From contig NC_049983.1 of the NCBI RefSeq assembly GCF_000003815.2, positions 3,420,282 to 3,484,281 of the forward strand: a stretch of DNA of 64,000 nt, written 5' to 3'. Numbering within the stretch: the first letter of the stretch is position 1; every line of letters begins with the position of its first letter. This document shows positions 22,048 through 49,790 of the stretch, in pieces. Both the position numbers and the translations under genes were made by a program. The notes under the pieces are model-generated. The model had not been told where the DNA came from. It did not search any database and saw only the letters and a program-made list of their open reading frames with translations. Source of the DNA: Branchiostoma floridae. Taxonomy: Eukaryota > Chordata > Leptocardii > Amphioxiformes > Branchiostomatidae.

Positions 22048-22173
22048 CGTCTTCCTCATATCCCCGCTCCTCCATGGGTGCGTAGTTTCCAGCCAGCTTC
22101 CCGGGCTGATCATCGAGGTCCTCCAGATCCTCCAGGAGGAACCTGGCCTCTTCCACGACCTCCATCAGTTTCT
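22048..22173 (-). pseudogene. Inverted orphan copy of peptide-gene exon 3
   Basis: A 126-bp minus-strand copy of exon 3, with intact acceptor (CCAG at its start) and donor (GACG/GTAAGA). By eye the one coding difference is Asn-Asp to Asn-Tyr in 'AGNYAPMEE'. No inverted copies of exons 1, 2 or 4 exist here, so it cannot encode the precursor alone. It could be an exon for an antisense transcript or simply a by-product of the duplication. Confidence 0.75.
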
Positions 22174-23026
22174 CTGGAAAACAATAAGTAAAGGCGGGCA
22201 ATAAGAAAACGCCAGTGACGGAGGTGTGATTGAGAGCACATAGACTTAAAGTAACACTCATTTGTGTATACTATCAGATCGGAATATGAGACACCACATT
22301 CATAGCCCACACAAGTTTGTCAGAGAAGCTAAAAACAACGTTCACATCAAAATAATAATCACAATCATGTCGCTCTTCAATATTCCAAAATAAAAGTTAT
22401 CCTTCTACAAATACATATTGACATGCAAAACATCAAGACTATACACATCAAAAATATTTTCTCTCTATCCAATCTCACCATGCTAATTGCTTCGAAATGA
22501 GACTCTTAAAAATACTCATACCATTCCCACATTTTCTAAAATTTGTCTGGTGGGATTTGCCAGGACCTTTGGTTCCTTTGAAGCAACATCACATCATAAT
22601 GATGGCAAAACAGCCCCAACTATGGGGGCAAAACATTAAGGATCATTAAGAAAATTACCGACCCAAAAGTAGGTCAGCCTCAACAAAAAACGGAATGTTA
22701 ATTGCACACTCTCAAAGCATTGCCGTGCAATCGTCCTTGTTAGGAAGGACAATGCAAGTTTGTCAAATGTTCACATTGATGTTTTTTTCTAGACTTTAAA
22801 CTGAAGGAAACTAATCATTGTACATCTATAGGTTATCAAAAGACTAGAAATTAAAAACTTTGTCAAGAATTTGTTGACATCCTTTATATATCTTTAGAAG
22901 TGCTTTCGGCTGATACCCAACACCTGAAATTCCATACCCTACGCCTACGGCATACATGTCGCCATACATCAATCAAATTCGCATGTGGATGGTTTCTTGA
23001 TTGGTCCCTACGGCATTACACTCCAG

Positions 23027-27150: not shown

Positions 27151-29400
27151 AATTTATTTATTTATTAGGATTCTCCACACTGGAGGGTATGGCGGAACAG
27201 GTGTCAAAAGACACCTTTTCGAAGCCGCCATACCTTAAACATAACAATGATACACCAAATCATAATATACATAAAATACAAGAACAGATATCATAATCAA
27301 TGTAACGTTCAAATCAAGATAAATCAACTTAACAACACACATACATTATTGAGTCCAAATTTATGAAATAGATATACATGTGGTCATAATATAGAGTAAA
27401 ATTATCGTGGCCTTGTGGCAATGCAAGAGGCGCAACAGCATGCTAGTGACCATGTGCAAGCCTGCTCTAGCTTGAAGTTTTGTCGGAATCGGTTTTGCAT
27501 GAATGTAGATAGATTTCGTTTAAAGGCAGACACATTGAACGGGCTTGTGGCTGATGCTCCCAGCCCTCTGATTTCAACGGGAAGTTTGTTTCAAATTGTG
27601 ATAAGTCGTGGTATAAATGAGGAGGCAAATGAAAAAGATCTTTCTCTCTGAGGGACTAACATGTGTGCCCTTAAACTACGTGGCGTTCTTGTAGGGAATG
27701 CAGCTAACCTCGCTAGATCTGAATCATATACCTTTGCAAGGGACTTAACGAATACCACAACATCAGACATCTCTCTTTGGTAAGAAAGTGGTAACAAGCC
27801 AAGTCTAGATAGCCTAGACTTGTAGTCCAGGTGTTCAGCGGAGGGCCCGAGGATGTACTTCGTTGCCCTTCGCTGTACACCCTCGATCAGGGATGTGAGA
27901 TTACGTGATGTGGGGCTCCATACTGACGAACAGTATTCCAAAACACTTCTAACAAGAGACAAATATAATGTCTTACGTATATCAGTGTTGGACTTGTAAC
28001 CTATGGAACGCTTGATAAACCCAAGCATTTGGTTAGCTTTGGCCACTGTTCTTATGACATGGCTATTCCATGTAAGGTTGGATTTTACTGTGGTGCCAAG
28101 GTCAGACATGCTGTCCACTTGTCAGGTTTGAACTTGACATGTGATAATCAAATCTGATGGGGTACTTAGACCGACGTGTAAACCTTAACACTATGCATTT
28201 GGATAGGTTGAAACTCAACTTCCACTTTATGCTCCAGTCATGTAGTGAACAGATATCTGTTGTAGTTTTGAACAGTCATTTGTGCTACGGATCTCTCTGA
28301 AACATTTGCTATCATCTGCAAAAAGTGCTGACATAGAGTTTCTAGCCGAGTCAGGTAGATCATTTATGTAAAGTACGAACAACAGTGGGCCTAGGATGGA
28401 GCCCTGTGGGACTCCGGAAGTGACGGTACGCCAATCAGACCGACTTCCTTCAACCACCACTCTTTGGCGGCGGGTTGTCAGGTAGGACTCAATCCATGAC
28501 AAGAGACTACCACTAAAACCGTACATTTGTAGTTTATGGACTAGTAGAGCATGTGGAACTGAATCAAATGCCTTGGCAAAATCTAAAAACAACATGTCTA
28601 CTTGGCCTCCTTTATCAAGAATTAACCCGACCTGATGGTATACTTCCAAAAGCTGGGTGGTGGTTGACCGGCCTTTCATGAAACCATGTTGTAGATTGTG
28701 TATTGACGCATGAGGCCTAGGAATAATGCTGTCGTGAACGCACATTTCCATGACTTTACTTACAGTGGAAAGTAATGACACAGGCCTGTAGTTAGAAACG
28801 ACCTCTTTGTCTCCCTTCTCATGAATGGGAGTGACGTGAGCGTCTTTCCAATGTGAGGGGAACTTACCTAAGGCCAAAGATTTATTAAATAGTAGAGTCA
28901 GGGATGGTGCGATAACGTCCGCACATCTCTTCAAGACATGAGGAGACATAGCATCTGGACCTACAGCCTTATTTGGATCAAGAGGAATCTACAGAAAACT
29001 GTAAGTTTCACAGAGCATCATCGCTTACAATGTCTATAACAGGGTTTACAGTGTCCATATCTGGCTTTGTAAATGTGGAGAAGAAGTAATCATTGAACAT
29101 AGATGCCTTATCTATTGGACACTGTGCAATAAGGCCGTCTAGTTGTACCACTGATGGAAGGGACTTGGATTTGGACTTTGCCCGAACAAAAGCCCAAAAA
29201 CTCTTAGGCGACTCATGAAGAGTGGACGACAGGCTCTCCAGGTACTTCTTGTATTTGGCTGAAAGGACGTTTTTCAGCCTGTTGGCTGAAAGGACGTTTT
29301 TCAGCCTGTTCCGAAGTTTGCGAAACTTTGTCCAGTGAGAGGGAAGGTCATTTTGAAATTCAAGTTGAATGCACACAAAAAAAAACCTGAAAAGAATCCT
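27150..29400 (-). mobile_element. Non-LTR retrotransposon (CR1/Jockey-like), RT region, frameshifted
   Basis: Minus-strand frames in order: linker before RT (29376-29008), RT palm (28949-28227) and post-RT (28118-27591). The RT has 'NYRPVSLLSTVSKVMEM', motif A 'FLDFAKAFDSVPH', motif B 'SGVPQGSILGPLLF' and motif C 'ALFADDSKC'. The thumb region has 'LEYCSSVWSPTSRNL' and 'IEGVQRRATKYIL'. Three frameshifts or stops disable it. The endonuclease is absent, so it is 5'-truncated. The 3' end carries AAATAAATAAAT on minus next to a stem-loop. Confidence 0.92.
27186..27234 (-). promoter_or_regulatory. LINE 3' UTR stem-loop
   Basis: GGTATGGCGG pairs with CCGCCATACC (27186-27195 and 27225-27234). Nested inside, AGGTGTC pairs with GACACCT around an AAAA loop. 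It lies next to the simple-repeat tail, where CR1/L2-type elements keep the structure their RT recognises. Confidence 0.65.
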
Positions 29401-31257: not shown

Positions 31258-32139
31258 ATGCGCCAGTCAATGTAAAGACAAGGGGAATGTGAGTACACAA
31301 TGTAAATATATCTACCAAGTATTTGACATTTGGTGTAATTTGGATCTATTTTGCATTCTAATTTTCAGATTGGCAATGTTTAGTCGTGCCATGTTTTTTC
31401 AGGCTGTTGTATGTTTATATTTTGGCATCAGCCAAGCATTCGCGAGTTTCGTACTCCTAGTAAAGAATGGAAGGGTTGAAAAAATACTTGAAAAAAAAAG
31501 AATTATTCGAAAATGTAATCCTCAAGCAAATGTAGGGGGAAGGCTGTTTTCTGCCTGACTCAAGTTCTCCCACACACTACCCTCCTGTCAACACTAAAGG
31601 GCAGTTCAGCCTTTTCTCCACACATCTGCTTTGAGACGCCAGTCTCCGTTATTTCAAGTCGCGGTTTTCAGCATCAGCCGGGTTCACGACAGCCCGTCTT
31701 CAGCCTGCAGAGGGGGATGGGAACGAGCTTTGTTAAGCAAATTTGTCCCAATAACCAGTCCCACATGACTGATTCTCATAAATGTTTCAGAACACCTGAA
31801 AAGGAGACAAGACAGCAATGGATTCGTGCATTCTACTTCCATGTACATCTTTCCTTTGACATAGTCGACACTATATTTCTCCTCTTCCATATCTAGAATA
31901 CCGAAACGCTGCATTGCTATTGCACAGAAATGAATTAAGTTGAAAGAAGGCGATCCCAATAGCTTGGAATCTGTATTAGATTTTAGATCATATAATAGTA
32001 AAAATCTGCTTTTTAAACTATTTGACCGTCAACTCAAATGTTACCTGCAATTAGCCCTTTGACAAGAGTTTGCAGTAAACTATAAAGTAATATTCTATTT
32101 GTCTAACTGGAGACATTTCTTGGGAAGTGCGTTCTTGGG
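31258..32139. other. No supported exon
   Basis: This lies where further 3' exons of the minus-strand WxxW/vWA/WAP gene would be expected. I found no further Cys-rich or domain-bearing exon; a 91-codon minus frame at 31684-31959 is unrecognised. Confidence 0.35.
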
Positions 32140-32896
32140 ATGTGACTAAGGCAAGACTTACAGAATAAACAAACAGACAAACAAACTGAAGACAGCGTCT
32201 TGGGAATTTTGTGAAGATGTGACTAAGGCAAGACTTACCGAAAACAGCGTCTTGGTAGGTGTGTTCTAAGGTTTAACCATGATAAGACTTACCTAAGACG
32301 GGGTCTTGGCAGGTGTGTTCTAAGATGTAAGACAAGACTTACCGACGACAGCGTCTTGGCAGGTGTGTTCTAAGGTGTTACCATGATAAGGCTTACCGAA
32401 GACACGGTCTTGGCAGATGTGTTCTAAGATGTAAGGCAAGACTTACCGAAGACAGGGTCTTGGCAAGTGTGTTCTAAGGTGTAAGACAAGACTTACCGAA
32501 GACTGAGTCTTGGCAGGTGTGTTCTAAGGTGTAAGACAAGACTTACCGAAGACTGAGTCTTGGCATGTGTGTTCGAAGGTGTAAGACAAGACTTACCGAA
32601 GACTGGGTCTTGGCAGGTGTGCTAAGGTGTTACCATGACAAGACTTACCGAAGACTGGGTCTTGGCAGGTGTGTTCTAAGGTGTTACCATGACAAAACTT
32701 ACCGAATACTGGGTCTTGTCAGGTGTGTTCTAAGGTGTTACCATGACAGGACTTACCGAAGACTGGGTCTTGTCAGGTGTGTTCTAAGGTGTTACCATGA
32801 CAGGACTTACCGAATACTGGGTGTTACCATGACAAGACTTACCGAAGTCTGGGTCTTGTCAGGTGTGTTCTAAGGTGTTACCATGACAAGACTTAC
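32140..32896 (-). repeat. Minisatellite of WAP-exon donor sites, about 14 copies
   Basis: Units of about 46-56 bp. On minus, each carries TGCCAAGACCCAGTCTTCG/GTAAGTCTTG, which is the last coding bases and donor of the WAP exon ending at 32897. By my reading about 13 copies keep a GTAAGT-type donor. The coding echo is 'CQDPVFG' versus the exon's own 'CQDPDFG'. The array fills the first 750 bp of the downstream intron. Confidence 0.85.
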
Positions 32897-33025
32897 CGAA
32901 GTCTGGGTCTTGGCAGGTGTGTCCACAGCCATTAGAGCAGCAGAGTTGTCCAGCTCGACAGTCGGAGTCGTTGCTACACATCTCCATACAGATGCCCACC
33001 TGGCCGGTTACATCAGGGCACTGAC
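32897..33025 (-). CDS. WAP domain exon
   Basis: 129 bp, phase 1 on both sides. Eight cysteines with exact four-disulfide-core spacing: C...C-x3-C-x5-C-x5-CC-x3-C-x3-C ('ICMEMCSNDSDCRAGQLCC' then 'SNGCGHTC'). Acceptor GCTGTGCAG and donor TTCG/GTAAGT. Symmetrical 1-1 phase lets this module be inserted or skipped without a frameshift. Confidence 0.9.
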
Positions 33026-36000
33026 CTGCACAGCAAGGGTAAAGGTTAGAACACAGCCTGGTCTCACACACGCGTTTACAGTTACAGATAACTGTTGTCC
33101 ATGTTGGACCAAAAACGTACTCGAAGTCCAGTGAAAATGGGCCTTAGATGCGCATGTAATATTTTCACCTAGTGTACTTCTCCCTTTGTATGTGTTGTAT
33201 TGAAAACAGGGAAAGAGTTTCTATTGCTAAAGTGCCATAATACCGTTTGAATAATACGCACCGCAATGCTCAGCTAAGACGCGCCGGGCGAGTTTGCAGG
33301 CAGCCGGGAACCGGGTGCCGAAGACCCTGTCGGAGCCGCCGGCGATGTCCGCCAGCGCCGCGGGGTTGAGCACGAGCGGGTGTCCGGCAGCCACACCCCA
33401 CAGGCCGATTCCCGCGCTCCGGGCAGCTGCAACCTCCGCCGTGTAGTCGTCGTCAGACTGGTGGTACAAGTACATTTTCTTTTAGCTCTTCAGTTGACTG
33501 TATAAATTTGTAGTTTTGACTTTACTAAAGACTTGAAAACTGACTTAAAAACAAGTGTGTAGGTTATTGTAACCTCAGTGATACAGGTGCGGGTATAAAT
33601 TAGGAAGCTGGAGATGAATAAGACGCAGTGGAGAGAGATGAAGAAAGAATGATTGCTGACCTTTGCATTAGCAGAACACATTGGACTTCTACTACTATGA
33701 ATCAGACACGCTTGGGATTGCGTCCCCGCCGCAAAAGTGCCATCATGATTTTCCACCAACTGTTCACACGGTACAAAAACGAGATGCACACTTTCCTCTG
33801 ACAGCCCTACACCAACTGTAAGATGAATACTTGGCGCCAACCCCGTCTGCTAACAGCTGTCACCTCACCATCTGCTTGGAGTTAAGCCCATTAACAAACA
33901 CATAAAGCACGATGCCTGTACCAATATATCTCAAATATAGGGGTGATTTCTGATATTATTACATCGATTATAACGACAGATACGGCTCCCAAAATCTCAT
34001 TGATTCGAGCTTTCATCACACCCCACCAACACAACAAGTATGAAACCAATCCATCCAGCCGTTCTTGAGTAATCATCTACACAGACAGAGACACATAACA
34101 GAAAATATAACCTCCATTCCATGACATTTCATGGAGGTAAAAACTATTTCCTGTTTAGCTCGAAAAATTTCCCGCAAATTTTACCCTTCGTTTAGTCAGC
34201 TTCTGAGATATATATATATATAGCTGTGGAAGAAATCCATAAATTGTTTTAAGTGTGGCAAGAGTCAAAGATATGTTCTGTGCTCTGCGAAGTAACTTTG
34301 TGTAAGTTCAATCTATTCTGTTCTGGAGTTGGCAAGTAATAACAAGATTATACATACCTCATCCCTACGCAAGGAAAACGTGGATTGATATGATGAGATT
34401 GTCATCCAAACATTTTAGGAAGAAAATAATGATTGCATGGTAACAAGTATGTTCTATTGTTTTCAGTAAATAAAACACCTGGCATTTATATTGGGACTAG
34501 CCGAGAGTTGATAAAATTGGGGAACGGAAAGGAATCTTTAAAGGGATCTAAATGTGTTACACTGAGACTTAATGATACACTTGCAATTTTTTGAAGTGTC
34601 TAACCATATCTGTCTGCCACAGGGCGACCCCAGAAAAACACAATAATTACAGGCTGCTTTTGTGCTCCCTGGTTTGTTTTCACAGCTCGCACAGCGTACA
34701 GAAGCAGTCTGTAATCATTATATCTTTCTGGGTTCCCTTGTGGTTTACAGATATGGTTAGACAATCCACAAAATTGCACAGCCTAAGGCATACTTGTTAT
34801 ATTGTTCTGTGTACCCCTGTCCGTCTGTGTGATATTTCTCCTTTATTTCTTAATTTCCGCACGCAGGTCAGACCGAGATGTGTTTGAAACTTGAGTCAAG
34901 AGGTAACAAGTCCAATGAAATATTGTAGAATGAGTCGGAACGTTTTTGTTTTTGTTTGTGAATTGTCCAACCATATCTGTCTGCCACAGGGCGACCCCAG
35001 AAAAACACAATAATTACAGGTTGCTTTTGTGCTCCCTGGTTTGTTTTCACACCTAGCACAGAGCACAGAAGCAGTCTGTAATCATTATGTCTTTCTGGGT
35101 TCCCTTGTGGTTTACAGATACGGTTAGATAATTCACAAAATTGCACAGCCTAAGGCATACTTGTTGTGTTGTTAATGTATATCCCTGTCCGTCTGTGTGA
35201 TATTTCTCCTTTATTTCTTCAATTCCGCACGAAGGTCAGACCGAGATGTGTCTGAAACTTGAGTCAAGAGGTAACAAGTCCAATAAAATATTGTAGAATG
35301 AGTCGTAACGTTTTTGTTTTTGTTTGTGCATTGTCCAACCATATCTGTCTTCCACAGGGCGACCCCAGAAAAACACAATAATTACAGGTTGCTTTTGTGC
35401 TCCCTGGTTTGTTTTCACACCTAGCACAGAGCACAGAAGCAGTCTGTAATCATTATTCTTTCTGGGTTCCCTTGTGGTTTACAGATACGGTTAGATAATT
35501 CACAAAATTGCACAGCCTAAGGCATACTTGTTGTGTTGTTAATGTATATCCCTGTCCGTCTGTGTGATATTTCTCCTTTATTTCTTCAATTCCGCACGAA
35601 GGTCAGACCGAGATGTGTCTGAAACTTGAGTCAAGAGGTAACAAGTCCAATAAAATATTGTAGAATGAGTCGTAACGTTTTTGTTTTTGTTTGTGCATTG
35701 TCCAACCATATCTGTCTTCCACAGGCCAGGGCGACCCCAGAAAAACACAATAATTACAGGCTGGTTCTGTGTTCCCTGGATTGTTTTCACACCTAGCACA
35801 GAGCACAGAAGCAGTCTGTAATCATTATGTCTTTCTGGGTTCCCTTGTGGTTTACAGATACGGTTAGATAATTCACAAAATTGCACAGCCTAAGGCATAC
35901 TTGTTGTGTTGTTAATGTATATCCCTGTCCGTCTGTGTGATATTTCTCCTTTATTTCTTCAATTCCGCACGAAGGTCAGACCGAGATGTGTCTGAAACTT

Positions 36001-39000
36001 GAGTCAAGAGGTAACAAGTCCAATAAAATATTGTAGAATGAGTCGTAACGTTTTTGTTTTTGTTTGTGCATTGTCCAACCATATCTGTCTTCCACAGGCC
36101 AGGGCGACCCCAGAAAAACACAATAATTACAAGCTGCTTCTGTGTTCCCTGGATTGTTTTCACACCTAGCACAGAGCACAGAAGCAGTCTGTTATAAATC
36201 ATTATGTCTTTCTGGGTTCCCTTGTGGTTTACAGGTACGGTTAGACAATCCACAAAATTGCACAGCCTAAGGCAAATTTGTCGTATTGTTATGTGTATCC
36301 CTGTCCACCTGTGTGATATTTCTCCTTTATTTCTTCAATTCCGCACGAAGGTCAGACCGAGATGTGTCTGAAACTTGAGTCAAGAGGTAACAAGTCCAAT
36401 AAAATATTGTAGAATGAGTCGTAACGTTTTTGTTTTTGTTTGTGCATTGTCCAACCATATCTGTCTTCCACAGGGCGACCCCAGAAAAACACAATAATTA
36501 CAGGTTGCTTTTGTGCTCCCTGGTTTGTTTTCACACCTAGCACAGAGCACAGAAGCAGTCTGTAATCATTATGTCTTTCTGGGTTCCCTTGTGGTTTACA
36601 GATATGGTTAGACCAAGGAGGTTCAACCTCCTTGGTTAGACAATCCACAAAATTGAACAGCCTAAGGCATACTTGTTATATTGTTCTGTGTACCCCTGTC
36701 CGTCTGTGTGATATTTCTCCTTTATTTCTTAATTTCCGCACGCAGGTCAGACCGAGATGTGTTTGAAACTTGAGTCAAGAGGTAACAAGTCCAATGAAAT
36801 ATTGTAGAATGAGTCGGAACGTTTTTGTTTTTGTTTGTGAATTGTCCAACCATATCTGTCTGCCATCAGGGCGACCCCAGAAAAACACAATAATTACAGG
36901 CTGGTTCTGTGCTCCCTGGTTTGTTTTCACACCTAGCACAGAGCACAGAAGCTGAGTCTGTAATCAATATGTCTTTCTGGGTTCCCTTGTGGCTTACAGA
37001 TACGGTTAGATAATTCACAAAATTGCACAGCCTAAGGCATACTTGTTGTGTTGTTAATGTATATCCCTGTACGTCTGTGTGATATTTCTCCTTTATTTCT
37101 TCAATTCCGCACGAAGGTCAGACCGAGATGTGTCTGAAACTTGAGTCAAGAGGTAACAAGTCCAATAAAATATTGTAGGATGAGTCGTAAAGTTTTTGTT
37201 TTGTTTGTGCATTGTCCAACCATATCTGTCTTCCACAGGCCAGGGCGACCCCAGAAAAACACAATAATTACAGGCTGCTTCTGTGTTCCCTGGATTGTTT
37301 TCACACCTAGCACAGAGCACAGAAGTAGTCTGTAATCATTATGTCTTTCTGGGTTCCCTTGTGGTTTACAGATATGGTTAGACAATCCACAAAATTGCAC
37401 AGCCTAAGGCATATTTGTCGTATTGTTATGTGTATCCCTGTCCACCTGTGTGATATTTCTCCTTTATTTCTTAATTCCCGCACGCAGGTCAGACCGAGAT
37501 GTGTCTGAAACTTGAGTCAAGATGTAACATTAGTCCAATAAATTGGTAGAAAGAATCGGAACGTTTTTGGTTTCGTAAACAGTCTGGTAGAACGTATCTA
37601 AACGCACTCCCACAGTGGACTGAGATAGAAGAACTTCTTGAACGGCATTTGTACATAGTACAACGTATTGCAAGAACTATTATACAAAGTAATCTCCAAG
37701 CAGATTCCTCCGTGGCAGCAGTAACTGAAGCTGGGGAAAGGACTTAAGCCGGCAGAGTGGCCAATTTTAATTCTCTGCCGGCTAAAGTCCTTCCCCAGCT
37801 TATGTTACTGTCTTGCCACGGAGGAATCTGCTTGGAAATTATATACAAAGTACCAAATATATAGCTTAACATCCTATATAATCCTATATATGACTTGAGA
37901 CCCTGTCCTATTTAGTTGTAAATGTCGTTATTATCACCTTTTGTTATCTGTGTTCGTAATCTTGCATGCGCGTCTTTATTTGTTCATATGTCACAAGAAA
38001 AGACCTATGTAAGCAATGCTACAATCCTCGTTAGATGAATGTGAATAGAAAGGTTAAAAAGGAGGGTGTTGTTGCTTCGGTAAAGCCCGATACTTTATGG
38101 TGAGAAAGTTAAATTTCAAAATCAAAAAGTTATCATTGGAAAGATGTTGGTAAAATAAGTGTTGGTAAAATGAAACGATATTTCTACGGTAACAGTCAGT
38201 CGTTGACCTTTAAAAATTCTTTTTTTTTGTTGAGGTTGGGGTGATTTCACGCCAAGAGTAATGATAAAATTTCTGTAATTATCAGACAACGTCCAAATTG
38301 AAGTACTTTTAATGAAAAAATCTTGACAGGGTTAGCCTGGCAATAGCTGGGGGAAAAGCCTTATTGACAGGCCCAAAAGGCCGTACTTCGAATAGAACTT
38401 TATTCTGTTTTCTTTAGCCAGGGTAGGTCATCTCAGTGTAACCACACTGCTTTACAGTGGGGCCGTGGTTATCCATATTTATAATGCAGTCCGGTCGTGA
38501 GGTCAGAGGTCGGCTCTCAGCTTCATCGATATCATACGCTTAAATGTTGCAATGTTTGGAGCCGTTTTTTTAATGTCATTGGAAGGTGCTTCCACTGACA
38601 AACGCCTCTGTGGCTAAACTTACACCTTCTACATTCCCAGTGAACTTGTGGCAGCTGTATTGATTGGCTTAAACTATGACGAGTAGGGTAACTGTGAGTC
38701 TCTGATACCATATGGAATACATTGAGATATTCTAGCAGTAGTTGGTTAACAGACTTGTAGACTGTATGCAACAGGTGATCATTTCTTCTAGTTTCCAGAG
38801 TATTCCAGTGTAGACTAGAGAGTTCATTCCTACCGATGTGAGACGCATATGAAAGACCAAGTGTAATTCTAGCAGCCCGGTTGTGTAGCTTTTGTAGCTT
38901 ATCTGAAAGGCATTTTCCACAGTTACCCCACACAACATCGCAGTAATCCAGTTTGGGAAGGACCATACAATTGAATCTCAAGGGTACATTTAGGCAAAAC

Positions 39001-42000
39001 TGGGGTTAGACACCGTAACACATACACCTAGTCCGGCCGATACACCCTTGCACAACTTATCTATACGTTAGGCACGAGTCAAACTGCGTAGTTGATGTTG
39101 GCCTATAAGGCACGCCATTGTCCGTCCGTGTGATGTTTTTCCTTTACTTCTTCATTTCCGCACGCAGGTCAGACCAAGATGTGTCTGAAACTTGAGTCAA
39201 GAGGTAACAAGTCCAATGAAATATGATAGAACGAATCGGAACGTTTTTCTTCTCTCCGCAGGTTAGGACTGGGTCTGCTCATATCCTGGGCCGGTATGTT
39301 GTGCCAATAGTAAAGTACTGTACATCTTCTAAACCTCAGTCTCAAACTGAAGGCATTTATATTAAACTTCAGCGAAGCACTACTTAGCCTATTAAACTTT
39401 ATGCTACACAGGAGTGAAAACATATATTGATACACCTTGACTTGTTTTTGTTAGCGCAGAAACAGTTTGTAATTATAATTGTGTTTTTTTGGAGGGGTTC
39501 GCCCTGTGGCTGATAGATATGGGAGTAATTAACAAATACCTCCATAAGTATGGTATGCGAATGGACCCTTGTGTGTGGTAAGTAGTTGCATGCCTATAAG
39601 GCAATAATTATCTGTGATCAGCTTTATGCAGTGTGTCTTTTGTGAAAAATCATACAGAGTGCTACTTGCACACACAGTCCTAATGTAGGAGTAAAGTCAT
39701 ACAGTACACCAGTTTCTTATATCCACTGTATAAAGTACTACGTTTACCAATGTTTGGTTTGACTTCTTCTTTGAAGGCAGTGGACTGCCCAACGGCAAAG
39801 GGTGGGGGGGGGGGGTAGGAGGGGGGAGTCACTTCCCGGGAGGGTAACATTTTCCCCGCCTGTGCTGGCAAATGTTTCCCTCGGGTGACCAAACTCCCCT
39901 TACCTGACAAATTGCTCTCCCTATAGCCAGCGTAGACAGTCTGGTAGAACGTAGGCCTGAGCTGAGATGGAAGAACTTCATTGCACGACTTTTGTATATG
40001 GCACAATGTAATGTATGTCAACGGCAGTCACTATATAACACAAGTACCATATATATAGGTATAGAACCAAGCCTAACATCCTAATTAACATAACAATAGA
40101 TGAGCCCACATACTGTCAGCAAAAATTTCCCCAAGAACTGAACACCACGTACAATTCCGTTTCTACACAAACGACCGACCGGTCCCTAGCCCTGGTGCAT
40201 CTGCTAGCAAGCACCTGCTTTGTACAGAGGCGCCGCCTAGTGAGCATTGGCGGTACTTAATGGCAAACACCGATTTTGAGGACCGAAGATTAACACCATC
40301 TGGCGAAATAAAATATTGCAAGATGTCAAAGTTCGGAAAGGAGATTTAAGGTCCATTAATGTAATGTAGACATCGAAGTAAACAATTTTAGATGCAATTC
40401 AGTCTCTACAGATGACGTTAGTGAAGCGAATCATACATCTAAAGCTAGAAGGTCAACGAGTTTGACGGAACATTTATGGTGAGTTTCTTTCTTTTTGTGT
40501 AAGAGCAATGTTTAAACTTATCAAGAAAGAGAGAGAGAGAGAGAGATGGTTTATTGCCATTGACATTAAAAACTCTTGCAGTAGATTTACAAAAGGCTGA
40601 ATTGTCGTTTTTTTACAGTCAATATTTCAACCTCTAACTAGTTAACACAATCAAAAGGATCGAGTGACAAAATAACATCTGCTTGTTTACAATGACTCGT
40701 CAGTTATTACACAAAGAAAGATTCACTACTGTTCACAAATTACCCGTCTTAGTTCAGGGGCTTTACACAGTACGGTAATGTGCTATTAGCGAAACGAGCA
40801 GTTCTACACCGGAAGTGACAGAATTTGTCTTTGTTTCTTAGTGACCTATTTTGGGTATCCCCTTGTCTAGATGGAAGCCAATTACAATTAACAACTAGAA
40901 GTCTTGTCCTTTTTAGACAGAAGCATTCGATAAAACAACCATCTCCTTTTTGCATCCGCACGAAAGCATATAAAATAAAGGAATAACACAACTGATAGCT
41001 GACAAAAACCAAACAATATCATATTATGACCTTATAGGCAAAGTATGACATGATGTATTACATTTGTAATGTGGCTCGATTTAAACAAATCACAGCATCT
41101 TATATCTTATTTAGACAGCAATCACAGGTTCAAATACATGGCTTGAAAATGTTTCGGCAAAAATCTTTTTCTTGATTTCATAAATCTTTTTCTTGAACCG
41201 CAAGTAATTGAGTTGCCTAAGGCCCCATTTCCGCCAGACGGCGATCACGATGCGCTCTCATTGCTACCTAAATAGGATATGTGTAACCTATGATTTCCTA
41301 CTGGGTTCATCATACAGCATGTAAAGGTGATCGCGAGACCGAGAGAGCTACAAAACACACAAAACATTTTTAAAAAATCGTTTCTTTTCTATACAATTCG
41401 TTGAGCGATCTGTCAATTTCTATGTCGCAGAGAGAGTGCGGCGAGAACGTCGTCCTAGTGGAAAGGGGGTATAATGCCTTTTTTTTATTCATAGCATGTG
41501 TAAAATCCAAAGCTTTCAAATGCAATAAATCTCTTCTTTTCGCACACCAAGACAGCGGACAAGACAGCAAAGTCAGCCAACGAAGGTACGCGTACCTACA
41601 TCGGCTACATATAGCGGCGAGAAGCACAACTCCAGTTACAAGCTCTGAGGAAGATGCCTGACAGACATCGGAACGTCAGCAAGGTGAGATTAACTAGTGG
41701 TGGGGAAAAAACTCCTATGTGCAACTTTGAATTTGTTTTTACATCAAAAATAAGCCCAAGTTTCTCACCTGTCCGTCTGTGATCACCACGGCAGCCCGGG
41801 GGAAACCGTCACGGAAGTCAGCCTGGGGGAACACAACAAACGTCAGAACATGATTCTGCTGTTCTTACACTTTTCCTCACACCCTTGCAGCAGCCTTAAG
41901 CTACTTTGTTAAAAGACTCTTAGGCTGACATCATTACTGAAACACGTTCTAACTGAATCACAATTGATAAGATTTGAAAGATCTCCTACCTCTGTCAAAT

Positions 42001-45000
42001 ACTGTTTTAGATTATCTTCTATATCATTTTCAATTGTAGCCCTGAATTATACAGACAAGGTGTTGGTAACATCACAACAATTATCAATATGTAATATTGA
42101 TGATGCAATGTCTTTCCCTGTTAAAAGTCTATTTCTACTACCCGGCACTCGTGCCTAGTGATTGCTTTTTCTCCCTCTATGTTGAAGTTGGATTGCATAT
42201 GAAGAATGCATGAGTTTTTACCACAACCAGACTAAGTTGATACCTCAAAACTATTAAAAAACGGACACACATATGAACAAAGAAACATACAGACTTGAAG
42301 CAATCTAGGCCCGGAAGTGTAATCCCTACCGTATCGGCCATGTAGCGGAGGGCCCCGCCGGTGTGGGTCTCGCCCCCTGCCGCGTACATGAGACAGTTCA
42401 CGGTGTCAATCAGGGTCGGGTTCTCCATGGGGTAGGTGCAGACAGGCAGGTACCAGGTCAGGACGCAGTCGTACGTGATGATTCCGATCTACGGAGCAGT
42501 TAGGCAAGAATAGCGATATTGAATTGTTTTGAAGAGAAAACGGCTTCAGCCTCACCTAGCCGTCGGTGCGCGTGTGATTCTATGTGTTGTTCTCTCCTTC
42601 TGTCCTTATCCCTGACCCTCGCCTGTCCCTCCCTCCACTCTCGATGCCCCTCCTTCTCTCTGCCCCTTTTTCTGTCTTTCTCTCACTCTTGTCCTCTGTC
42701 TGCCCCTCCTCCACTTTCTCTCCCCTCCCTATGTTCTTCCTCCTTTCTGTCCCTCTCCTCTCTGTCCCTCTCCTCTCTGACTCACTCTCTCTTTTAGTCA
42801 GTATCTCTCTCTCTGCCTCTTTCTCTCTCTCTTTTTCTATGAAGAAATCTACCAGTCGACTTCTTATATGTGGAAAGGTAAATCTACTAGTGGACTTCTT
42901 ATATGTGGAAAGGTAAATCCAAAGCAGCTACCTCGTGAAAAAATAGGTCGACAACTTGTTCAAATGGAGCAAATCTGTGAACTCGACCCAGCTGCTCGGA
43001 CAGCGACCTAAGAGAGGCCGATGAGGCAGCCCGCTGCTAGATAAGGAGAAGGAGCAACAGTTATGACCTTCTGAAGAAATACTGCCATCCCAGACTCACC
43101 TCAACATCTGCACATAACTCTATGAGGCACTGAACGAGGTCTATGACTCACCCCGACATCCACACACAGCTCTATGAAGCAGAGGATGAGGTTTATGACT
43201 CACCTCGACATCCTCACATAGCTCTATGGAGCACTGGGTGAGGCTATGACTCACCCCGACATCCACACATAGCTCTATGGAGCAGAGGTTGAGGCTATGA
43301 CTCACCCCGACATCCAAACACAGCTCTATGGAGCAGAGGATGAGGCTATGACTCACCCCGACATCCACACACAGCTCTATAGAGCAGAGGATGAGGCTAT
43401 GACTCACCCCGACATCCACACACAGCTCTATGACTCACCCCGACATCCACACACAGCTCTATGACTCACCCCGACATCCACACACAGCTCTATGACTCAC
43501 CCCGACATCCACACACAGCTCTATAACTCACCCCGACATCCACACACAGCTCCATGACTCACCTCGACATCTACACAGAACTCAATGAAGCAGTAGATGA
43601 GGTCTATGATGAACCGTTTGATGCTGAAGAAGGTGGACATGGAGATGCTGGAGGACAGGTCCACCACAAGGATCAGGTCCAGGGAGCAGACCGGCGTTTT
43701 CGGCTCTCTAGTAGGAGGTGGAGGAGGCATGGTCGGTTCGACTGTAGAAAATAAATAAGATATGTGTGTGTTAATCGGACATCTGTTTGATGAAATTAGA
43801 TTTTCATACAATGTATCATTTCATGACAAAGTATTCTCAAAACATCTGTTCTATTCTTTCGTGAATATCAGGGATGCCATCACGGATCACAATGGATTCT
43901 CTTTCAGCACTCAGCCCTGCCCTACATGGGTTTACACCCTTCAACAAATCCCATTTCCTCTTATATTCCGGTATGAACTTTCAGACTCGCTTTATACGTA
44001 AAAAATTGACCAGATTGATCTGTGACTAGCAGCAGATTTTTACAGCAGAAAAGTACCTTTCGCGTAGTTTACGTTGTTGTTTGAATAGACTGACTGACTA
44101 TATCTATCTATTCGTCTATCTGTCTATTTTCATTTATCTATATGTATCTATCGGTCTATTGTTCTATCCATATTTATGCATCTATCTATATATCTATAGC
44201 TATATATCTATCCATCTATATCTATTTCTCTCTCTCTCTCTCTCTCTCTCACTCTCTCTCTCTAGCTATCTATCTAAATCTAGCTATCTATATAGACGAA
44301 AACACGTCCTAGAATTCTGACTTGGCCTTCGTACTCACTCAGCTCATAAAGTCCCACTATCAACCCATCTTTACTAAGCAGAGTGCAGGACAAGTTATGA
44401 TGTTTAAGTGATGTGTAAGTAGCGATGTTACCTTCTGAAGGACAACACACAGCCCAGCGATCAGCTTCGATCTCACAGTAGTAGCCTCGAGGGCAGCGCT
44501 GGCCACCCCGTCCGCAGTAGTAGTTAGGCAGAAAAGGGTCTCAGAATGGACAGTAGGGGTCTGTGGAGACTGTGGTAGTTAGGCAGAAAAGGGTCTCCGG
44601 ATGGACAGTAGGGTTATGTGGAGACATAACAGTAGTATTTAGGCAGGAAAAGGTCTCCGGACGGACAGTAGGGCTCTGTGGGACATAACAGTGGTAGTTA
44701 GGCAGGAACAGGTCTCCGGACGCACAGTATGGGTCTGTGAAGACATAACAGTAGTAGTTAGGCAGGAAAACGTCTACGAACGGGCAGTATGGGTCTGTGA
44801 AGACATAACAGTAGTAGTTAGGCAGGTAAGTGTCTTCCGACAGACAGTAGGTTATGTGGAGACATAATAGTAGTAGTTAGGCAGGTAACAGTCTCCAGAT
44901 GGACAGTAGGGGGTCTGTTGAGACAAAACAATAGTAGTTAGGCAGATAAAGGTCTCTGGATGGACAGTAGGGTTCTGTGGAGACATAAAAGTAGTACTTA

Positions 45001-48000
45001 GGCAGGTAAGGGCCTCCTAATGGACAGTAGGGTTCTTTGGAGATGTAACAGTAGTAGTTAGGCAGGTAACAGTCTCCAGATGGACAGTAGGGGTCTGTTG
45101 AGACAAAACAATAGTAGTTAGGCAGGTAAGGGTCTCTGGATGGACAGTAGGGTTCTGTGGAGACATAAAAGTAGTACTTAGGCAGGTAAGGGTCTCTGGA
45201 TGGACAGTAGGGTTCTTTGGAGATGTAACAGTAGTAGTTAGGCAGGTAACAGTCTCCAGATGGACAGTAGGGGTCTGTTGAGACAAAACAATAGTAGTTA
45301 GGCAGGTAAGGGTCTCTGGATGGACAGTAGGGTTCTGTGGAGACATAAAAGTAGTACTTAGGCAGGTAAGGGTCTCTGGATGGACAGTAGGGTTCTTTGG
45401 AGATGTAACAGTAGTAGTTAGGCAGGTAACAGTCTCCAGATGGACAGTAGGGGTCTGTTGAGACAAAACAATAGTAGTTAGGCAGGTAAGGGTCTCTTGA
45501 TGGACAGTAGGGTTCTTTGACTGTGTAGATATAAGAATAGTAGATATATAATTAATAAGCAGGTAAGGGTCTCCGGATGGACAGAAGGTTTAACTTTCCG
45601 TGGATACATAACAGTGGTAGTTAGGCAGGTAAGAGTCTCCGAACGGTCAGTAGCGGTCTGTGGAGACATATCAGTAGTAGTTAAAAAGGTAAGGCAGTCT
45701 CCAGACCCGGACCAGTAGGGGTTCGTGTGGGGACATAACAGTAGTAGTTAGACAGGTAAAGGTCTCCGGATNNNNNNNNNNNNNNNNNNNNNNNNNNNNN
45801 NNNNNNNNNNNNNNNNNNNNNNNNNNNNNNNNNNNNNNNNNNNNNNNNNNNNNNNNNNNNNNNNNNNNNNNGTCTTTGCAGAGAGCTGTAAGACAGTCGA
45901 ACAGCAAGCAGCAGCATTGCAACTTATATGACACCTACCTGGATAGCAGAAATATACCTGGGCAGCAGAAACCTACCTAAACAGCAGAAGCCTACCTGGA
46001 CAGCAGAAGCGGACTTCGTAGTCCAGGCAGCGCTGGTCCCTCTGCTGAGTGTTTCTGCAGGCGAAGCCGTTTGCTGTGTCGTAGAAGACGAAGGTCTCTC
46101 CGGTTTGGGAAGCCTCCTGTTGGGTGGCGATGACTCGGGCCTCCACGTCTGTAGGCCGTGGGCAGATCTTTCCTGGGTACTCCGGACGGAGGCCGACTAG
46201 CACAACACAGATTCGAATCGTAAGAGACGGGGGGGGGGGGGGGCATAGGCTTTCTTATGAAACCCCGCTTACCCATTCACATGGGCCCATGAAACATCGA
46301 ACATGGGGTCCCAGTAGGGGGGATCTAAAACAACCGGGAGATTATAAAGGATACTAAATACCTTTAGGCTACCGAAAAGACAACTGCAAATTAGTATTCT
46401 TTAGTACCCGAGATAGTAATTCTCGTATAAGACTGATATATATGAGAATTTCCTTATGCGGATTCTATAAGGGTTTAATATGAACCTACCAGGAAAAAGG
46501 AAAGGACGTCAAACTGCAAGCATGACTAAACCAACCTGGATTGCCGTTGGCCAAGGCGTATAAGATTTCCCAGTCTCCGGTCCCACTGATGTTGTCACGG
46601 TCGAACCATTGCGTCCAGCGGGCACATGTACCTGAGGTGGAGGAAAATGCACAGTTTTTTTTGCTATTGTTTCTTTTTATTCAAAGAAAATATAGAAAAA
46701 TACAAAAAAATGGCCAGTACTAAGTGGAGATGCAATCTAGATGTGCACAACTTATATTTACACGCCACTTTCTACATTAGGCCACAGCAAGTAAATTTTA
46801 TGGGTGACATCCGCGCGCTCATTAATTTTTGCCAGATTTCAGAAAAAAAAAACAAGATTTTTCTTCTTCTTTGGAGATGGTCAACATGACGAAAAATTAC
46901 CAAAATGAGCAAATATGTTGTGCTGTAGCCTTATAATTACTTGTAAAAGTGACACTTGTGAGATACCTGCAGTTGTAGAAATGAAACTGATTGGATAGTT
47001 ATAAAAGTGGCACCAATTTGGAAGCCATCAGTGTAGTTAGCAGCTTTCTTTGTGATACCAGTCTACCACACCAGTGTCACTTTCACTACATCAGTACATG
47101 TTTTGACTACAGGGATGAATGCCTTGTTGGCTGTGATACCATGACCATACTTTGCCCCTTTAATTCTTGTTACACAACGTTTATGGGGCCTATTTTGAAA
47201 ATGTAACCATCTTGTTTTTTGTACCCATCTTGTTTTTTTTCGCCCTATCGCACTATTTTTGCAGTCTGCAGAGGATGTCATCCATAAAATTTACTTGCTA
47301 TGGCCTTATCGAAAACAAGAAGATATTTGACAAGAAATTCTAGAGTAACCTACACTGTGTTTCTGTTCATCGTTAGTATCTTCTCTATTGTGCTCATTAA
47401 GACCTTTTTTTTGGACATGCTCGCCATTAGATGTATTTAGTTATGACCGGAAGGCTACTCACGAGGGCAGCAGAAGCGGACTTCATAGTCCAGGCACGTG
47501 TTGTCCGGCTGGTCCTCCTTCTTGCACACGAACCCGGTGGTGACGTCATAGAACTCGAAGACTTCTCCCGTCAGAAACGCGTCCTGTCCGGTGCCCTTGA
47601 CGCGAACCTGTGATGGTAGAGGTTAGAGCGTCTGGTTTTGTTCGAAAACCCTACACATTACGATGACACAAACAAACAAACAAACAAACAAGGTAACAAA
47701 CAAACTGTCCGATGGCGATGACGCGAACCTGTTGTGGTGTCGAGGTTAGAGCGTCTGGTTTTGTTCGAAAACCCTGCACATTACGATGACACAAACAAAC
47801 AAATAAACAAACAAGGTAACAAACAAACTGTCCGATGGCGATGACGCGAACCTGTGGTGGTGTCGAGGTTAGAGAGTCTGGTTGTGTACGAACACCCTAC
47901 CTATTACGACTACACAAACAAACCAATAAACAAACAAGAAAATAGCCTAGCTAACAAACAAACAAACAGACCTGTATGTCGATGGGCGATCGGCAGATCT

Positions 48001-48096
48001 GGCCGGGGTTTTCCGGGCGGAGGTGGGACAGAACCTCCCAGTCCCCGGTAACAGACGGGTTGTCACGGTCGAACCAGGGCGTCCAACGGGGGCACG
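32897..48096 (-). CDS. Multi-exon secreted WxxW-WxxW-Cys-rich-vWA-WAP protein (partial)
   Basis: Ten exons in order on minus: 48096-47972 and 47607-47463 (WxxW 1); 46631-46536 and 46196-45996 (WxxW 2); about 44540-44432 (Cys-rich); 43741-43563, 42488-42330, 41822-41769 and 33457-33262 (vWA); 33025-32897 (WAP). Reading phase is consistent across the joins (0, 1, 1, 1, 1, 0, 0, 0, 1 in order), which strongly supports one gene. All domains are extracellular types: WxxW modules occur in mucin-like proteins, vWA binds ligand through a metal site, and WAP is a four-disulfide core found in protease inhibitors. A matrix, mucus or immune secreted protein is likely, but the exact role is unknown. The true N-terminus and 3' end were not found. 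Five exon edges carry tandem amplifications of the splice junction. Intron 33458-41768 is 8.3 kb and repeat-filled. Confidence 0.85.
33262..33457 (-). CDS. vWA exon 4 (C-terminal part of the domain)
   Basis: Starts 'SDDDYTAEVAAARSAG' and 'IGLWGVAAGH', the beta-strand and helix after the ITDG motif. It ends 'FPAACKLARRVLAEHC', the usual vWA-terminal Cys. It is phase 0 in and phase 1 out, joining directly to the WAP exon as '...EHC-GQCPDV'. GC-rich compared with surrounding introns, as are the other exons of this gene. Confidence 0.88.
33458..34579 (-). other. Intron sequence, no feature
   Basis: Upstream part of the 8.3-kb vWA intron; AT-rich, with a short (TA)n at about 34210. No exon found. 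Confidence 0.45.
34580..37565. repeat. Tandem array of about 370-bp foldback units, 8 copies
   Basis: The landmark 'gaccgagatgtgt' occurs at 34871, 35239, 35606, 35979, 36355, 36750, 37121 and 37492 (spacing 367-395 bp). Each unit contains an internal inverted pair of about 75 bp: 'tgtccaaccatatctgt' plus 'gcgaccccagaaaaacaca' against 'tctttctgggttcccttgtg' plus 'acagatatggttagacaa'. Two unit subtypes differ by 'ttccacaggccagggcgacc' versus 'ccacagggcgacc'. A lone diverged unit fragment is at 39117-39255. Long minus frames here are repeat translations. Confidence 0.92.
36612..36636. repeat. Palindromic insertion in one array unit
   Basis: ACCAAGGAGGTT, one base, then AACCTCCTTGGT: 12-bp perfect arms with a 1-base loop, present in only one unit. 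The neighbouring 'ggttaga' is repeated on both sides, while other units read straight through 'ggttagacaatcc'. Confidence 0.85.
37681..37852. mobile_element. Foldback MITE with 9-11 bp target duplication (Mutator-like)
   Basis: Arms of about 62 bp: 'ccaagcagattcctccgtgg', 'ctgaagctgggg' and 'agccggcagag' are mirrored by 'ctctgccggct', 'ccccagctta' and 'ccacggaggaatctgcttgg'. The 11-bp direct repeat TATACAAAGTA flanks it (37681-37691 and 37842-37852). The paralogous repeat at 39930-40110 shows the unoccupied site ('ataacacaagtacc'). Duplication length suggests a Mutator-like family, which is inference. Confidence 0.88.
38390..38985 (-). mobile_element. LINE C-terminal remnant (Jockey/CR1-like)
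   Basis: The minus frame from 38981 gives 'LPKLDYCDVVWGNCGKCL', 'KLQKLHNRAARITLGLS', 'SSLHWNTLETRRNDHLLH' and 'YPTRHSLSQSIQLPQVH', the thumb/connection and C-terminus of Jockey/CR1-type polymerases. It is 5'-truncated. The 3' part runs into 'ataatgcagtccggtcgtga', also found alone at 30335. Confidence 0.88.
39117..39255. repeat. Lone diverged fragment of the 370-bp array unit
   Basis: 'ttccgcacgcaggtcagacc', 'gatgtgtctgaaacttgagt' and 'caagaggtaacaagtccaat' match the array at 34.6-37.6 kb. A second piece ('ggttcgccctgtggctgata') follows at 39495. Confidence 0.75.
39930..40110 (+). repeat. Interspersed repeat family B, copy 3 (empty MITE site)
   Basis: 'cagtctggtagaacgta' through 'agcctaacatcc' parallels 37570-37690 plus 37853-37880, without the MITE found there. 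The tail 'aattaacataac' matches 6870-6885. Confidence 0.65.
40120..41768. other. Intron sequence; GA run and PLE-like motif
   Basis: (GA)n at about 40528-40546. Near 41640-41675, 'ctctgaggaagatgcctgac' followed by 'agacatcggaacgtcagcaa' resembles the widespread 'ctgAnGA...GAAACGTC' motif linked to Penelope-like elements and hammerhead ribozymes. No exon seen. Confidence 0.4.
41769..41822 (-). CDS. vWA exon 3
   Basis: 54 bp, phase 0-0, encoding 'ADFRDGFPRAAVVITDGQ': the central beta strand and the VITDG aspartate of the metal-ion-dependent adhesion site. Acceptor TCCCCCAG, donor ACAG/GTGAGA. Confidence 0.88.
42330..42488 (-). CDS. vWA exon 2
   Basis: 159 bp, phase 0-0. It opens 'IGIITYDCVLTWYLP', the second beta strand of vWA, and ends 'GGETHTGGALRYMADT', containing the MIDAS threonine. 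Donor GATACG/GTAGGG; the acceptor CTCCGTAG is short of pyrimidines. Confidence 0.85.
42575..42835. repeat. CT-rich low-complexity tract
   Basis: Long run of 'ctctct', 'ccctcc' and 'tctttc' sequence. The open frames through it are compositional (Ser/Leu/Pro) and not genes. Confidence 0.85.
43085..43562 (-). repeat. Minisatellite of vWA-exon-1 donor sites (51-bp then 31-bp units)
   Basis: Starts of 'tatgactcacc' at 43142, 43194, 43245, 43296, 43347 and 43398 are 51-52 bp apart. From 43398 to 43553 the spacing is exactly 31 bp. On minus each unit reads GTGTGGATGTCGGG/GTGAGTCAT, a copy of the end and donor of vWA exon 1 (GTGTAGATGTCGAG/GTGAGTCAT at 43563). The longer units also include 'CSIELC', echoing the exon's 'CFIEFC'. 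Confidence 0.88.
43563..43741 (-). CDS. vWA exon 1 with MIDAS
   Basis: 179 bp, phase 1 in and 0 out. A Pro-rich linker (MPPPPPTREPKTP) is followed by 'VCSLDLILVVDLSSSIS', with the DxSxS metal-binding motif intact, and 'FIIDLIYCFIEFCVDVE'. The exon ends exactly where the 31-bp minisatellite begins. Confidence 0.9.
43742..44431. other. Intron with TATC/TC microsatellite
   Basis: 44081-44290 is a mixed (TATC)n/(TC)n tract. Nothing else seen. Confidence 0.7.
44432..44540 (-). CDS. Cys-rich (lustrin-like) domain exon, acceptor ambiguous
   Basis: Encodes 'DPFLPNYYCGRGGQRCP' and 'RGYYCEIEADRWAVCCPSE', with C...CP-x-GYYC...CC spacing as in lustrin/EB-type repeats. It leaves in phase 1 and joins vWA exon 1 in frame. 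The acceptor is unclear because the exon start is amplified into the 60-bp array. The nearest array-type acceptor (CTCCACAG, about 44562) would read a TGA after 'YCPF'; an AG at that TGAG, 21 bases downstream, would keep the same frame and avoid it. Confidence 0.65.
44541..45940 (-). repeat. 60-bp minisatellite of acceptor/exon-start copies, with 180-bp higher-order units
   Basis: On minus, units read like TCTCCACAG/AACCCTACTGTCCATC-CGGAGACC... CTGCCTAACTACTAC. They are copies of the 3' splice site and first codons of the Cys-rich exon ('PYCPSGDLYLPNYY'). The monomer is 60 bp; between about 44890 and 45500 three-monomer blocks of 180 bp repeat nearly perfectly (45061, 45241, 45421). The array spans the assembly gap. 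Confidence 0.88.
45772..45871. other. Assembly gap, 100 N
   Basis: Exactly 100 N inside the 60-bp array. The round number suggests a placeholder, so the true array length is unknown. Confidence 0.99.
45941..45995 (-). repeat. About 19-bp repeat of the WxxW-2 donor, 3 extra copies
   Basis: On minus, TTCTGCTGTCCAG/GTAGG at the exon end is followed by TTCTGCTGTTTAG/GTAGG, TTCTGCTGCCCAG/GTATA and TTCTGCTATCCAG/GTAGG. Each is a variant of the same coding end plus donor. Confidence 0.85.
45996..46196 (-). CDS. WxxW domain 2, second exon
   Basis: 201 bp, phase 1-1. It opens 'LRPEYPGKICPRPTD', continues 'VFYDTANGFACRNTQQ' and ends 'CLDYEVRFCCP', matching the conserved C-terminal half of WxxW modules. 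Acceptor GTGCTAG; the donor is amplified (see 45941-45995). Confidence 0.9.
46230..46243. repeat. Poly-G run
   Basis: About 14 consecutive G in the intron between the two WxxW-2 exons. Similar runs are at 39787 and 57486. Confidence 0.8.
46536..46631 (-). CDS. WxxW domain 2, first exon
   Basis: 96 bp, phase 1-1. Encodes 'TCARWTQWFDRDNISGTG' and 'DWEILYALANGNP', with the eponymous W-x2-W and the following FDRDN box. Acceptor CCACCTCAG, donor CCAG/GTTGGT. Confidence 0.9.
46632..47462. other. Intron, no feature
   Basis: AT-rich; includes a relic of the short dispersed repeat near 47265-47320 ('gaggatgtcatccataaaat'). Confidence 0.5.
47463..47607 (-). CDS. WxxW domain 1, second exon
   Basis: 145 bp, phase 0 in and 1 out. 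Encodes 'VRVKGTGQDAFLTGEV', 'FYDVTTGFVCKKEDQ' and 'CLDYEVRFCCP', paralogous to 45996-46196. Donor CCCTC/GTGAGT. The acceptor ATCACAG is the proximal member of a tandem set. Confidence 0.9.
47608..47970 (-). repeat. 121-123 bp repeat carrying copies of the WxxW-1 acceptor
   Basis: 'gacgcgaacctgt' occurs at 47599 (true exon start), 47720 and 47843. On minus each upstream unit has ACCACAACAG/GTTCGCGTCATCGCC or a close variant, an acceptor plus first codons of the exon. The units also contain (ACAA)n tracts of varying length. They fill the whole 364-bp intron. Confidence 0.85.
47972..48096 (-). CDS. WxxW domain 1, first exon
   Basis: Encodes 'CPRWTPWFDRDNPSVTG', 'DWEVLSHLRPENPG' and 'QICRSPIDIQ', ending phase 0 at ATACAG/GTCTGT. 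The 5' edge is uncertain: an acceptor at TTGGAG before 48096 gives phase 1, while one 14 bases further upstream gives phase 2, which would fit a candidate exon at 57535-57588. Both lack a good pyrimidine tract. Confidence 0.8.
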
Positions 48097-48099
48097 CTC

Positions 48100-49790
48100 C
48101 AAGTACCCTCCAATTAAACTACAGCCAGGTGTAACATATTATAATGCGAAAAACAATTAAATAAACTTCAACTTGGCAGCTCTAAAGAGATATTTGGTTG
48201 AGCTTGAAAATCACATTTGCAATGTGTTTCTGGATACTTGTTTGACAACTTGTAGCCTTAGTAACTTTATTTCCCACTAGTCTTGCTTTTGGTAAAAATG
48301 GGCTTTGATCTTTGTCAATCATCCCATTGAACCCCATAAGTAAGACTTGAAAAAAAGGGCCTTCATAAAAATGGGCAGCTCTTATGAATTTGAGGTCCGA
48401 TCTTTGAAAAAAAAATGTTTGGAGCATGTGTGTTAACAGTCATTGCAGGAGAAAACCAGGCAAAACAAGGCAGAGGTCGGAAGATGGGGGTCGGCCAAAT
48501 CAACTGAAACTTTTTATGTGTGATAGGTATGGGGAACTATAAACAGCCATATGATTAAAACCCTCCAGCTATTTTTTCGTTATGGCGTTCTGGGGCCCCC
48601 TCTGAGACACTCCAAAATCAAACTATTGATGACTGAAAATTACTGAAATTGCGATGGCTATTCTGATACTTCTGATTAAGATATGACAAAAAAGTTTTAT
48701 ATTCCGATATTCCGTGTGTTCTTTAGTTTCACTGACAAAGTTTGAAGATGAAGTTTGAAATTAGGAGGGTGTTACAGGGGGTTACCAGAACCAATGAAAA
48801 CACGATTTTCAACTCTCTGAATTTTGGTGATCTTTAAGCGAGGTTCGCACAAGGGTTTAAATAGTATAACAGTACAGGTAAAAGCAATCATCTACTGATA
48901 AAAACACATGATAAAATTCTATTAAAAAGTCACGGAACAAATGCGAGTTTACAGGAAGTTAAAAGCTATTTTAAAAAGTTGTTAAGGAGTCAGTTTCACG
49001 CAGTAGAGCACATGAAGTAGATAATTTCGTATTGTACAACTTCAGAGCTCTAGGCATAAATGACAGCTCGCGTCTCTTTGTTTGACTATGTGGAGTCAAT
49101 CTGATGAAATTCATCCCAAGTTTCTAGGGATATACGACTCATTACAAACGTAAGCTGACCACCGTTGTATATGGCTTTGCTGTCCTGTTTAATGTTTTAC
49201 ATGTAGTCTTATGCCTGGTCCTGACTGGTAGACTTGTAACATGTTCTTTAGGTACATTAAATAGTCGCCAAATGATCTCTGAATAATATCAAAAGGCAAT
49301 GTTCAGAAAATTAGTGTAAAACAAAAACACACACAGAGTGTTCCCCTCACTAATGGTGCTTTATTCATCCTTTTTGCTGTAGAATGGATGACCGCTTTCA
49401 TTAAGGTACAGTATGAAAAATTGAACCTAAAGAAATCATGAAAACTTAACTTTTTTGGTTTCATCGCTAAAATCATAACGGTAAAACACAAAAAAGTACA
49501 CGTCTATAACTCTAGCTTCGGTATTAATAAGCCATTACAAACATTTATATAGCTTATTAATAACATTGCGGGTGAACGACAGTAGTACTCAGTCTATCCA
49601 CATAGACGTGGCCAAACAATATCAAACTAACACCAAAGTTTGGAAACCTGAATTCGGTATATATATCCGCTATTAGATCTATTGTAAATGATATTGCATT
49701 ATACATATTTAAGATATTACTACATGCTTGAAGTATTGCAATAGATAATCCTGTCTTGTTTTCCGCTTGCTGAACAGAGAAGACTTAGCA
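48100..49790. other. No gene; repeat family A copy 2 at 48460-48850
   Basis: 'gtcggaagatgggggtcggc', 'gataggtatgggg', 'actataaacagccatatgat' and 'taaaaccctcc' mark the second copy of the family seen at 710. The rest is unremarkable. Confidence 0.5.

Follow-up and report, generated by a model that had tools for sequence, protein, structure and literature searches.

A cluster of probable "mirage" minisatellites at the exon edges of a single amphioxus gene

In a 64,000-nucleotide stretch of the amphioxus genome (hereafter, the window), five exon edges of one minus-strand gene, with WxxW, Lustrin-type Cys-rich, vWA and WAP domains, are spanned by tandem repeats, an observation that the present analysis confirms as real. 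These arrays very probably belong to the amphioxus minisatellites known as "mirages", which would have arisen by separate duplications across exon-intron borders, changed length through slippage or unequal exchange, and left splicing to the outermost copy. What is new is mainly the number of mirages found in a single gene, since the phenomenon itself is already known, and the surprise is their clustering in one gene family.

The gene model comprises nine exons with predicted edges, set by reading frame, phase, GT/AG and domain match, all on the minus strand. The first WxxW domain is encoded by exons W1a (47972..48094, counted from its first Cys codon; PF13330, E 4e-9) and W1b (47463..47607; E 3e-10), and the second by W2a (46536..46631; E 0.0014, below the cut-off with 19.7 vs 22.4 bits) and W2b (45996..46196; E 1.3e-16), with PF13330 (Mucin2_WxxW) over its cut-off in three of the four pieces. 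They are followed by a Lustrin-type Cys-rich exon (44432..44539; PF14625, E 4.6e-5) and two vWA exons, vWA1 (43563..43741; PF00092, E 0.0094) and vWA2 (42330..42488; E 0.1), the latter array-free at both edges; these three matches lie below the cut-off. A putative last vWA exon was recognized by eye (33262..33472) and gave no Pfam match, and the WAP exon (32897..33025; PF00095, E 2.7e-11) is over the cut-off. AG or GT occurs at 16 of the 18 exon ends; W1a and the last vWA exon each lack it at the 5′ end, which is not fixed in either. Phases agree in all six introns between W1a and vWA2, and likewise between the last vWA exon and the WAP exon. The predicted array-bearing edges are the W1b acceptor (47607), the W2b donor (45996), the vWA1 donor (43563), the WAP donor (32897) and the acceptor of the Cys-rich exon, either at 44539 or at an AG 21 bases upstream in equal phase.

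TRF rows cover all five edges named in the original prediction. The W1 array (minus strand, like the others; 47584..47938; TRF 123 bp x2.9) has units of 121-123 bp at the W1b acceptor, each with 97-99 bp of intron and 24 bp of exon start, and together with its first copy makes up the entire W1 intron, whose 364 bp are intron copies of 120, 99 and 97 bp with two 24-bp exon-start copies between them. The inner two intron copies start with TTTG, as against GTCTG in the first, and have therefore lost the donor GT. In the W2 donor array (45933..46008; 19 bp x4.0), the unit joins 15 bp of exon end to 4 bp of intron, while the Cys-exon acceptor array (44515..45771; 60 bp x20.5), whose 5′ end adjoins a run of N, repeats an acceptor-like CTCCACAG followed by about 43 bp of exon start. 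The vWA exon-1 donor array (43093..43588) combines a 51-bp unit x6.6 (43093-43432) and a 31-bp unit x6.2 (43397-43588), and most units carry GGG/GTGAGT or GAG/GTGAGT. Finally, the WAP donor array (32224..32922) counts more than 11 copies (54 bp x11.4 at 32229-32822, with neighboring rows reaching 32922), and TTCG/GTAAGT is present in most of its ~54-bp units. Each array was thus correctly described as carrying a functional-looking splice site with adjacent codons, the units consisting of a splice site plus 15 to ~45 coding bases.

A single exon edge falls inside each of the five arrays, with at least 8 bp to either side, and their polarity is uniform: donor arrays begin with the authentic site and acceptor arrays end with it, which places all spare copies within the intron. 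As a control, 20 dinucleotide shuffles of 31900-48200 produced one TRF row in total, with a score of 54. The unit consensuses share no blastn match, except for the 31- and 51-bp vWA pair, which bears out the claim that the units are unrelated and supports separate origins. Ten arrays of the gene were considered in all, and the remaining five make no contact with any exon edge identified here; among them is an array of 367 bp x8 at 34597-37573, which was rejected as a junction array since it touches no exon edge.

Mirages were described as minisatellite-like duplications of exon-intron borders in two amphioxus globin genes (PMC3087553, which also cites Adh3 and other loci with mirages), and PGBD5 and troponin C provide further cases (PMC3902484). 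As presented in the excerpts of both papers, their units measure 10-72 and 150-160 bp and occur at donors and acceptors, their length is unstable, and the results suggest regular splicing. These reports refute the statement in the original prediction that no described system of this kind was known. Like the mirages of Adh3, the globins BflGb6 and BflGb9, troponin C and PGBD5, the five arrays are made of tandem, minisatellite-like units that span exon-intron borders at donors or acceptors, many units retain AG/GT splice signals, unit lengths are in the same range, and copy number varies between gene copies. Unlike them, five separate arrays occur in this one gene and a sixth in its diverged copy, whereas in the same excerpts PGBD5 is the only gene described with repeats at two kinds of splice site (PMC3087553, PMC3902484). 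No genome-wide survey of mirages was found among the matches listed in the open-licence literature.

The diverged copy came to light in a search of the genome (513,431,437 bases in 431 contigs) with the vWA array as query, which matched only the window and a gene copy on another contig (C17); on this result, a dispersed repeat was rejected as the source of the vWA units. The nine exons are 85-98% identical between both copies (87.5% for the putative last vWA exon), and mean column identity is 96% between the donors of the Cys and vWA1 exons and 71% over a second stretch with large gaps. The C17 Cys exon reaches 30.2 bits against a PF14625 cut-off of 27, covering the whole profile. In the C17 copy (L004), four of the five edges again carry arrays, with TRF copy numbers differing from those of the window ~1.2- to 6-fold: the 123-bp W1 unit is present x3.5 vs x2.9 (with 6 vs 3 acceptor motifs), the 19-bp W2 unit x23.9 vs x4.0, the 60-bp Cys unit x9.1 vs x20.5, and the vWA array consists of 31 bp x17.9 vs the 31- and 51-bp units of the window. 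In the C17 W2 array, AGGT is kept in 23/23 units (the first 23 of 25 were tallied). No array was found at the C17 WAP exon (18212899-18213020), the sole TRF row of that locus (L005) lying elsewhere. Four arrays common to both copies and one that is not imply that the four predate the split or came by exchange, and that one was gained or lost since then. A WxxW exon further upstream in the C17 copy has the sixth array of this family at its acceptor (L004:2560-3010), and a similar one occurs at another WxxW acceptor (L013).

This second copy also bears on the idea that an assembly artefact or collapsed haplotypes inflated the arrays. The Cys array is touched by a run of N, and the draft genome contained an assembly error at one published mirage, as indicated in the excerpt of PMC3087553. 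However, the recurrence of four arrays at equivalent edges of a diverged copy on another contig, together with the point changes that distinguish array units, leaves an artefact extremely unlikely, and it was set aside.

Small tandem duplications across the exon-intron border, as separate events at the five edges, would have founded the arrays, and replication slippage or unequal exchange would then account for their growth and shrinkage. If the outermost site is the one spliced, the mRNA would remain unchanged, and the arrays would be tolerated as intron sequence because the spare copies lie on the intron side. We infer from this layout that the arrays are neutral for splicing in this gene and lack a function.

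A functional role, either through alternative exon ends or through an in-phase Cys array adding 20-residue repeats to the protein, appears very unlikely. In favor of such a role, on coarse matrices drawn from general knowledge, not trained ones, the vWA spare donors score 9.0 vs 11.3 for the authentic one, and the WAP spare donors mostly 8.7 vs 8.7. In the W2, vWA and WAP arrays, however, every spare donor that scores above 4 and repeats the authentic site shifts the frame, leads to a stop codon or does both, and the W1 spare acceptors encounter a stop ahead of W1b. The Cys array is the exception, as its 60-bp units preserve phase, the 12/12 spare acceptors listed are in phase, and a 224-aa open frame spans part of the array; still, the reading frame from these acceptors meets one or two stops. 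The last unit before the exon in the window (44515-44560) contains a TGA in frame with the Lustrin-type exon, with a further AG in the same phase directly after it, and this TGA is absent at the corresponding place of the C17 copy. Alternative exon ends, suggested by the original prediction, are therefore disfavored at four edges and find some support in the phase of the Cys units. Published results on other mirages also point to regular splicing (PMC3087553, PMC3902484). In amphioxus VCBP genes, partial exons with splice sites occur within introns, and VCBP templates in human cells yielded diverse transcripts, some of them frameshifted, according to the excerpt of PMC2632668. By analogy, spare splice sites may not always be silent, and the VCBP transcripts would speak against splice neutrality in general.

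The original prediction also raised the possibility of duplication targeted to splice junctions. If R-loops or breaks formed at exon-intron borders in the course of transcription, for instance, edges would be hot spots of minisatellite birth. Inside this gene, the figures favor targeting: five of the seven larger arrays (those with at least 2.5 copies, from the ten considered) lie on edges, and in a post hoc placement test on the 16 AG/GT edges at least five edges were reached in 13/4000 free placements and in 0/4000 constrained ones, in which arrays were barred from eating exons. With all ten arrays, five edges were reached in 63/4000 free and 1/4000 constrained placements, and on the 18 exon ends the counts were 22/4000 free and 0 constrained for the larger arrays, and 74 and 0 for all ten. 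Pure chance placement thus fits poorly in this gene, which counts against the mirage account. Against a background of 7.8%, hits on 5 or more of the 16 edges have a binomial probability of 0.006, and against 5.8% one of 0.0017; because the arrays were the reason for choosing this gene, both the placement and the binomial figures overstate the case.

Targeting would predict junctions to exceed neighboring sequence across genes, and a sample of 60 WxxW and p450 loci yielded the opposite of what is seen within this gene: local self-duplication was found at 7/120 edges, a figure that includes every predicted edge whatever its splice score, vs 513/6581 flank points. Among edges with a splice score above 4 on similarly coarse matrices, 3/74 were duplicated (WxxW 3/39, p450 0/35). 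Orientation in this narrow-zone test was set by stop count, in agreement with the strand list for 58/60 loci (L018 and L019 differ). Wider zones, with minus-strand loci left unflipped, gave 10/120 edges vs 107/1020 flank points; applied to the window, this version detected four of the five arrays but not that with 19-bp units, which shows that it undercounts short units. The sample keeps the near-duplicates L016/L017 and L025/L026, its locus L012 is part of the C17 gene copy, and the match in L059 looks like a perfect 58-bp duplication within coding sequence, not a clear mirage. L025 and L026 correspond to WxxW exon clusters at C13:6856221-6861456 and C11:22740839-22746099, which are probably duplicates or haplotypes since their repeat coordinates are mirror images.

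A second line of evidence on targeting comes from tandem runs of the donor motif CAGGTAAGT. Single sites number 6660 genome-wide vs 4814 for the reversed control, and tandem pairs with gaps of 6-36 number 31 vs 6, an excess that shrinks to about 12 donor-motif places (by eye) vs at most 6 in the control when pairs are counted as places. At gaps of 37-67, the pairs far exceed the reversed motif (377 vs 10), which again counts against the mirage account; by eye, dispersed repeat families make up about two thirds of the 100 rows listed. To judge by their appearance, these families look borne by mobile elements. One of them, on C1-C5, has a 51-bp CAGGTAAGT-bearing tandem unit, with inverted pairs ~1-2 kb apart at several places, and a second family on C1-C5 has a 68-bp unit. 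Taking the placement figures, the locus sample and these counts together, we consider junction targeting unlikely, and the reading of the arrays as mirages is retained.

Five CAGGTAAGT runs were taken, three evenly spaced among the first 100 C1 single sites and two gap 37-67 runs picked by eye, and in 3/5 of them a Pfam-supported exon ends in the array. The donor arrays belong to a VWC exon (L067; 75 bp x11.5; Pfam 5.8e-10), a Folate_carrier exon (L068; 64 bp x23.8; 3.2e-10) and a TALPID3 exon (L070; 134 bp x3.9; 6.1e-9). Of the evenly spaced three, which speak for targeting, one ends the TALPID3 exon and two have open frames only. In L069, Pfam gave FAM47 and others below the cut-off only, and in L071 nothing over the cut-off; the latter was rejected as a CAGGTAAGT donor array of its open frame, the motif being on the opposite strand. 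Separately, the non-coding portion of the unit includes a (GTTT)n stretch in three arrays at exon or frame edges (window 47608-47971, L070 and L071), and such a stretch may help tandem duplication to start.

Mirages have been tied to a model of intron gain (excerpt of PMC3087553). In the model of Rogers cited there, introns are gained when AG/GT proto-splice sites are duplicated in tandem, and, as in the arrays of the window, splice sites and a piece of exon are copied along. Unlike in that model, the duplicated segment in the W1 array comprises an intron plus 24 bp of exon, and no new intron is shown. A related, rather improbable reading is that mirage arrays move introns, since intron copies flanking a short exon piece could allow a slide by one piece with the protein unchanged. 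This reading rests on a by-eye alignment of two WxxW domains, in which the intron of the upstream domain on C17 (L004:3020-3178) follows VISTQ and lies 24 bp, or 8 codons, further downstream than the W1 intron (47607). The offset equals the length of the exon piece repeated in each W1 unit, and the C17 intron would correspond to the other end of that piece.

One gene family with at least six separate mirages, in two gene copies, makes it possible to track the birth and loss of arrays and their changes in copy number. Together with the VWC, folate-carrier and TALPID3 donor arrays, these six suggest that mirages are spread across the genome; if so, comparison of gene copies can test whether they drive intron sliding or gain, and if the clustering alone holds, it would be a curiosity within a known phenomenon.

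Other features of the window are independent of this gene. At 53900-54762, an 84-bp array of 10 copies lies in the 3′ portion of a 954-aa open frame whose start, like its upstream neighbor, matches leucine-rich repeats; the array may be a coding repeat, since 84 is a multiple of 3. A reverse transcriptase fragment (PF00078, E 8.7e-28) lies at 28230-28988. Two 101-aa open frames, at 21130-21432 on the plus strand and 21968-22270 on the minus strand, are near-identical over the 70 residues shown and form an inverted repeat ~540 bp apart.
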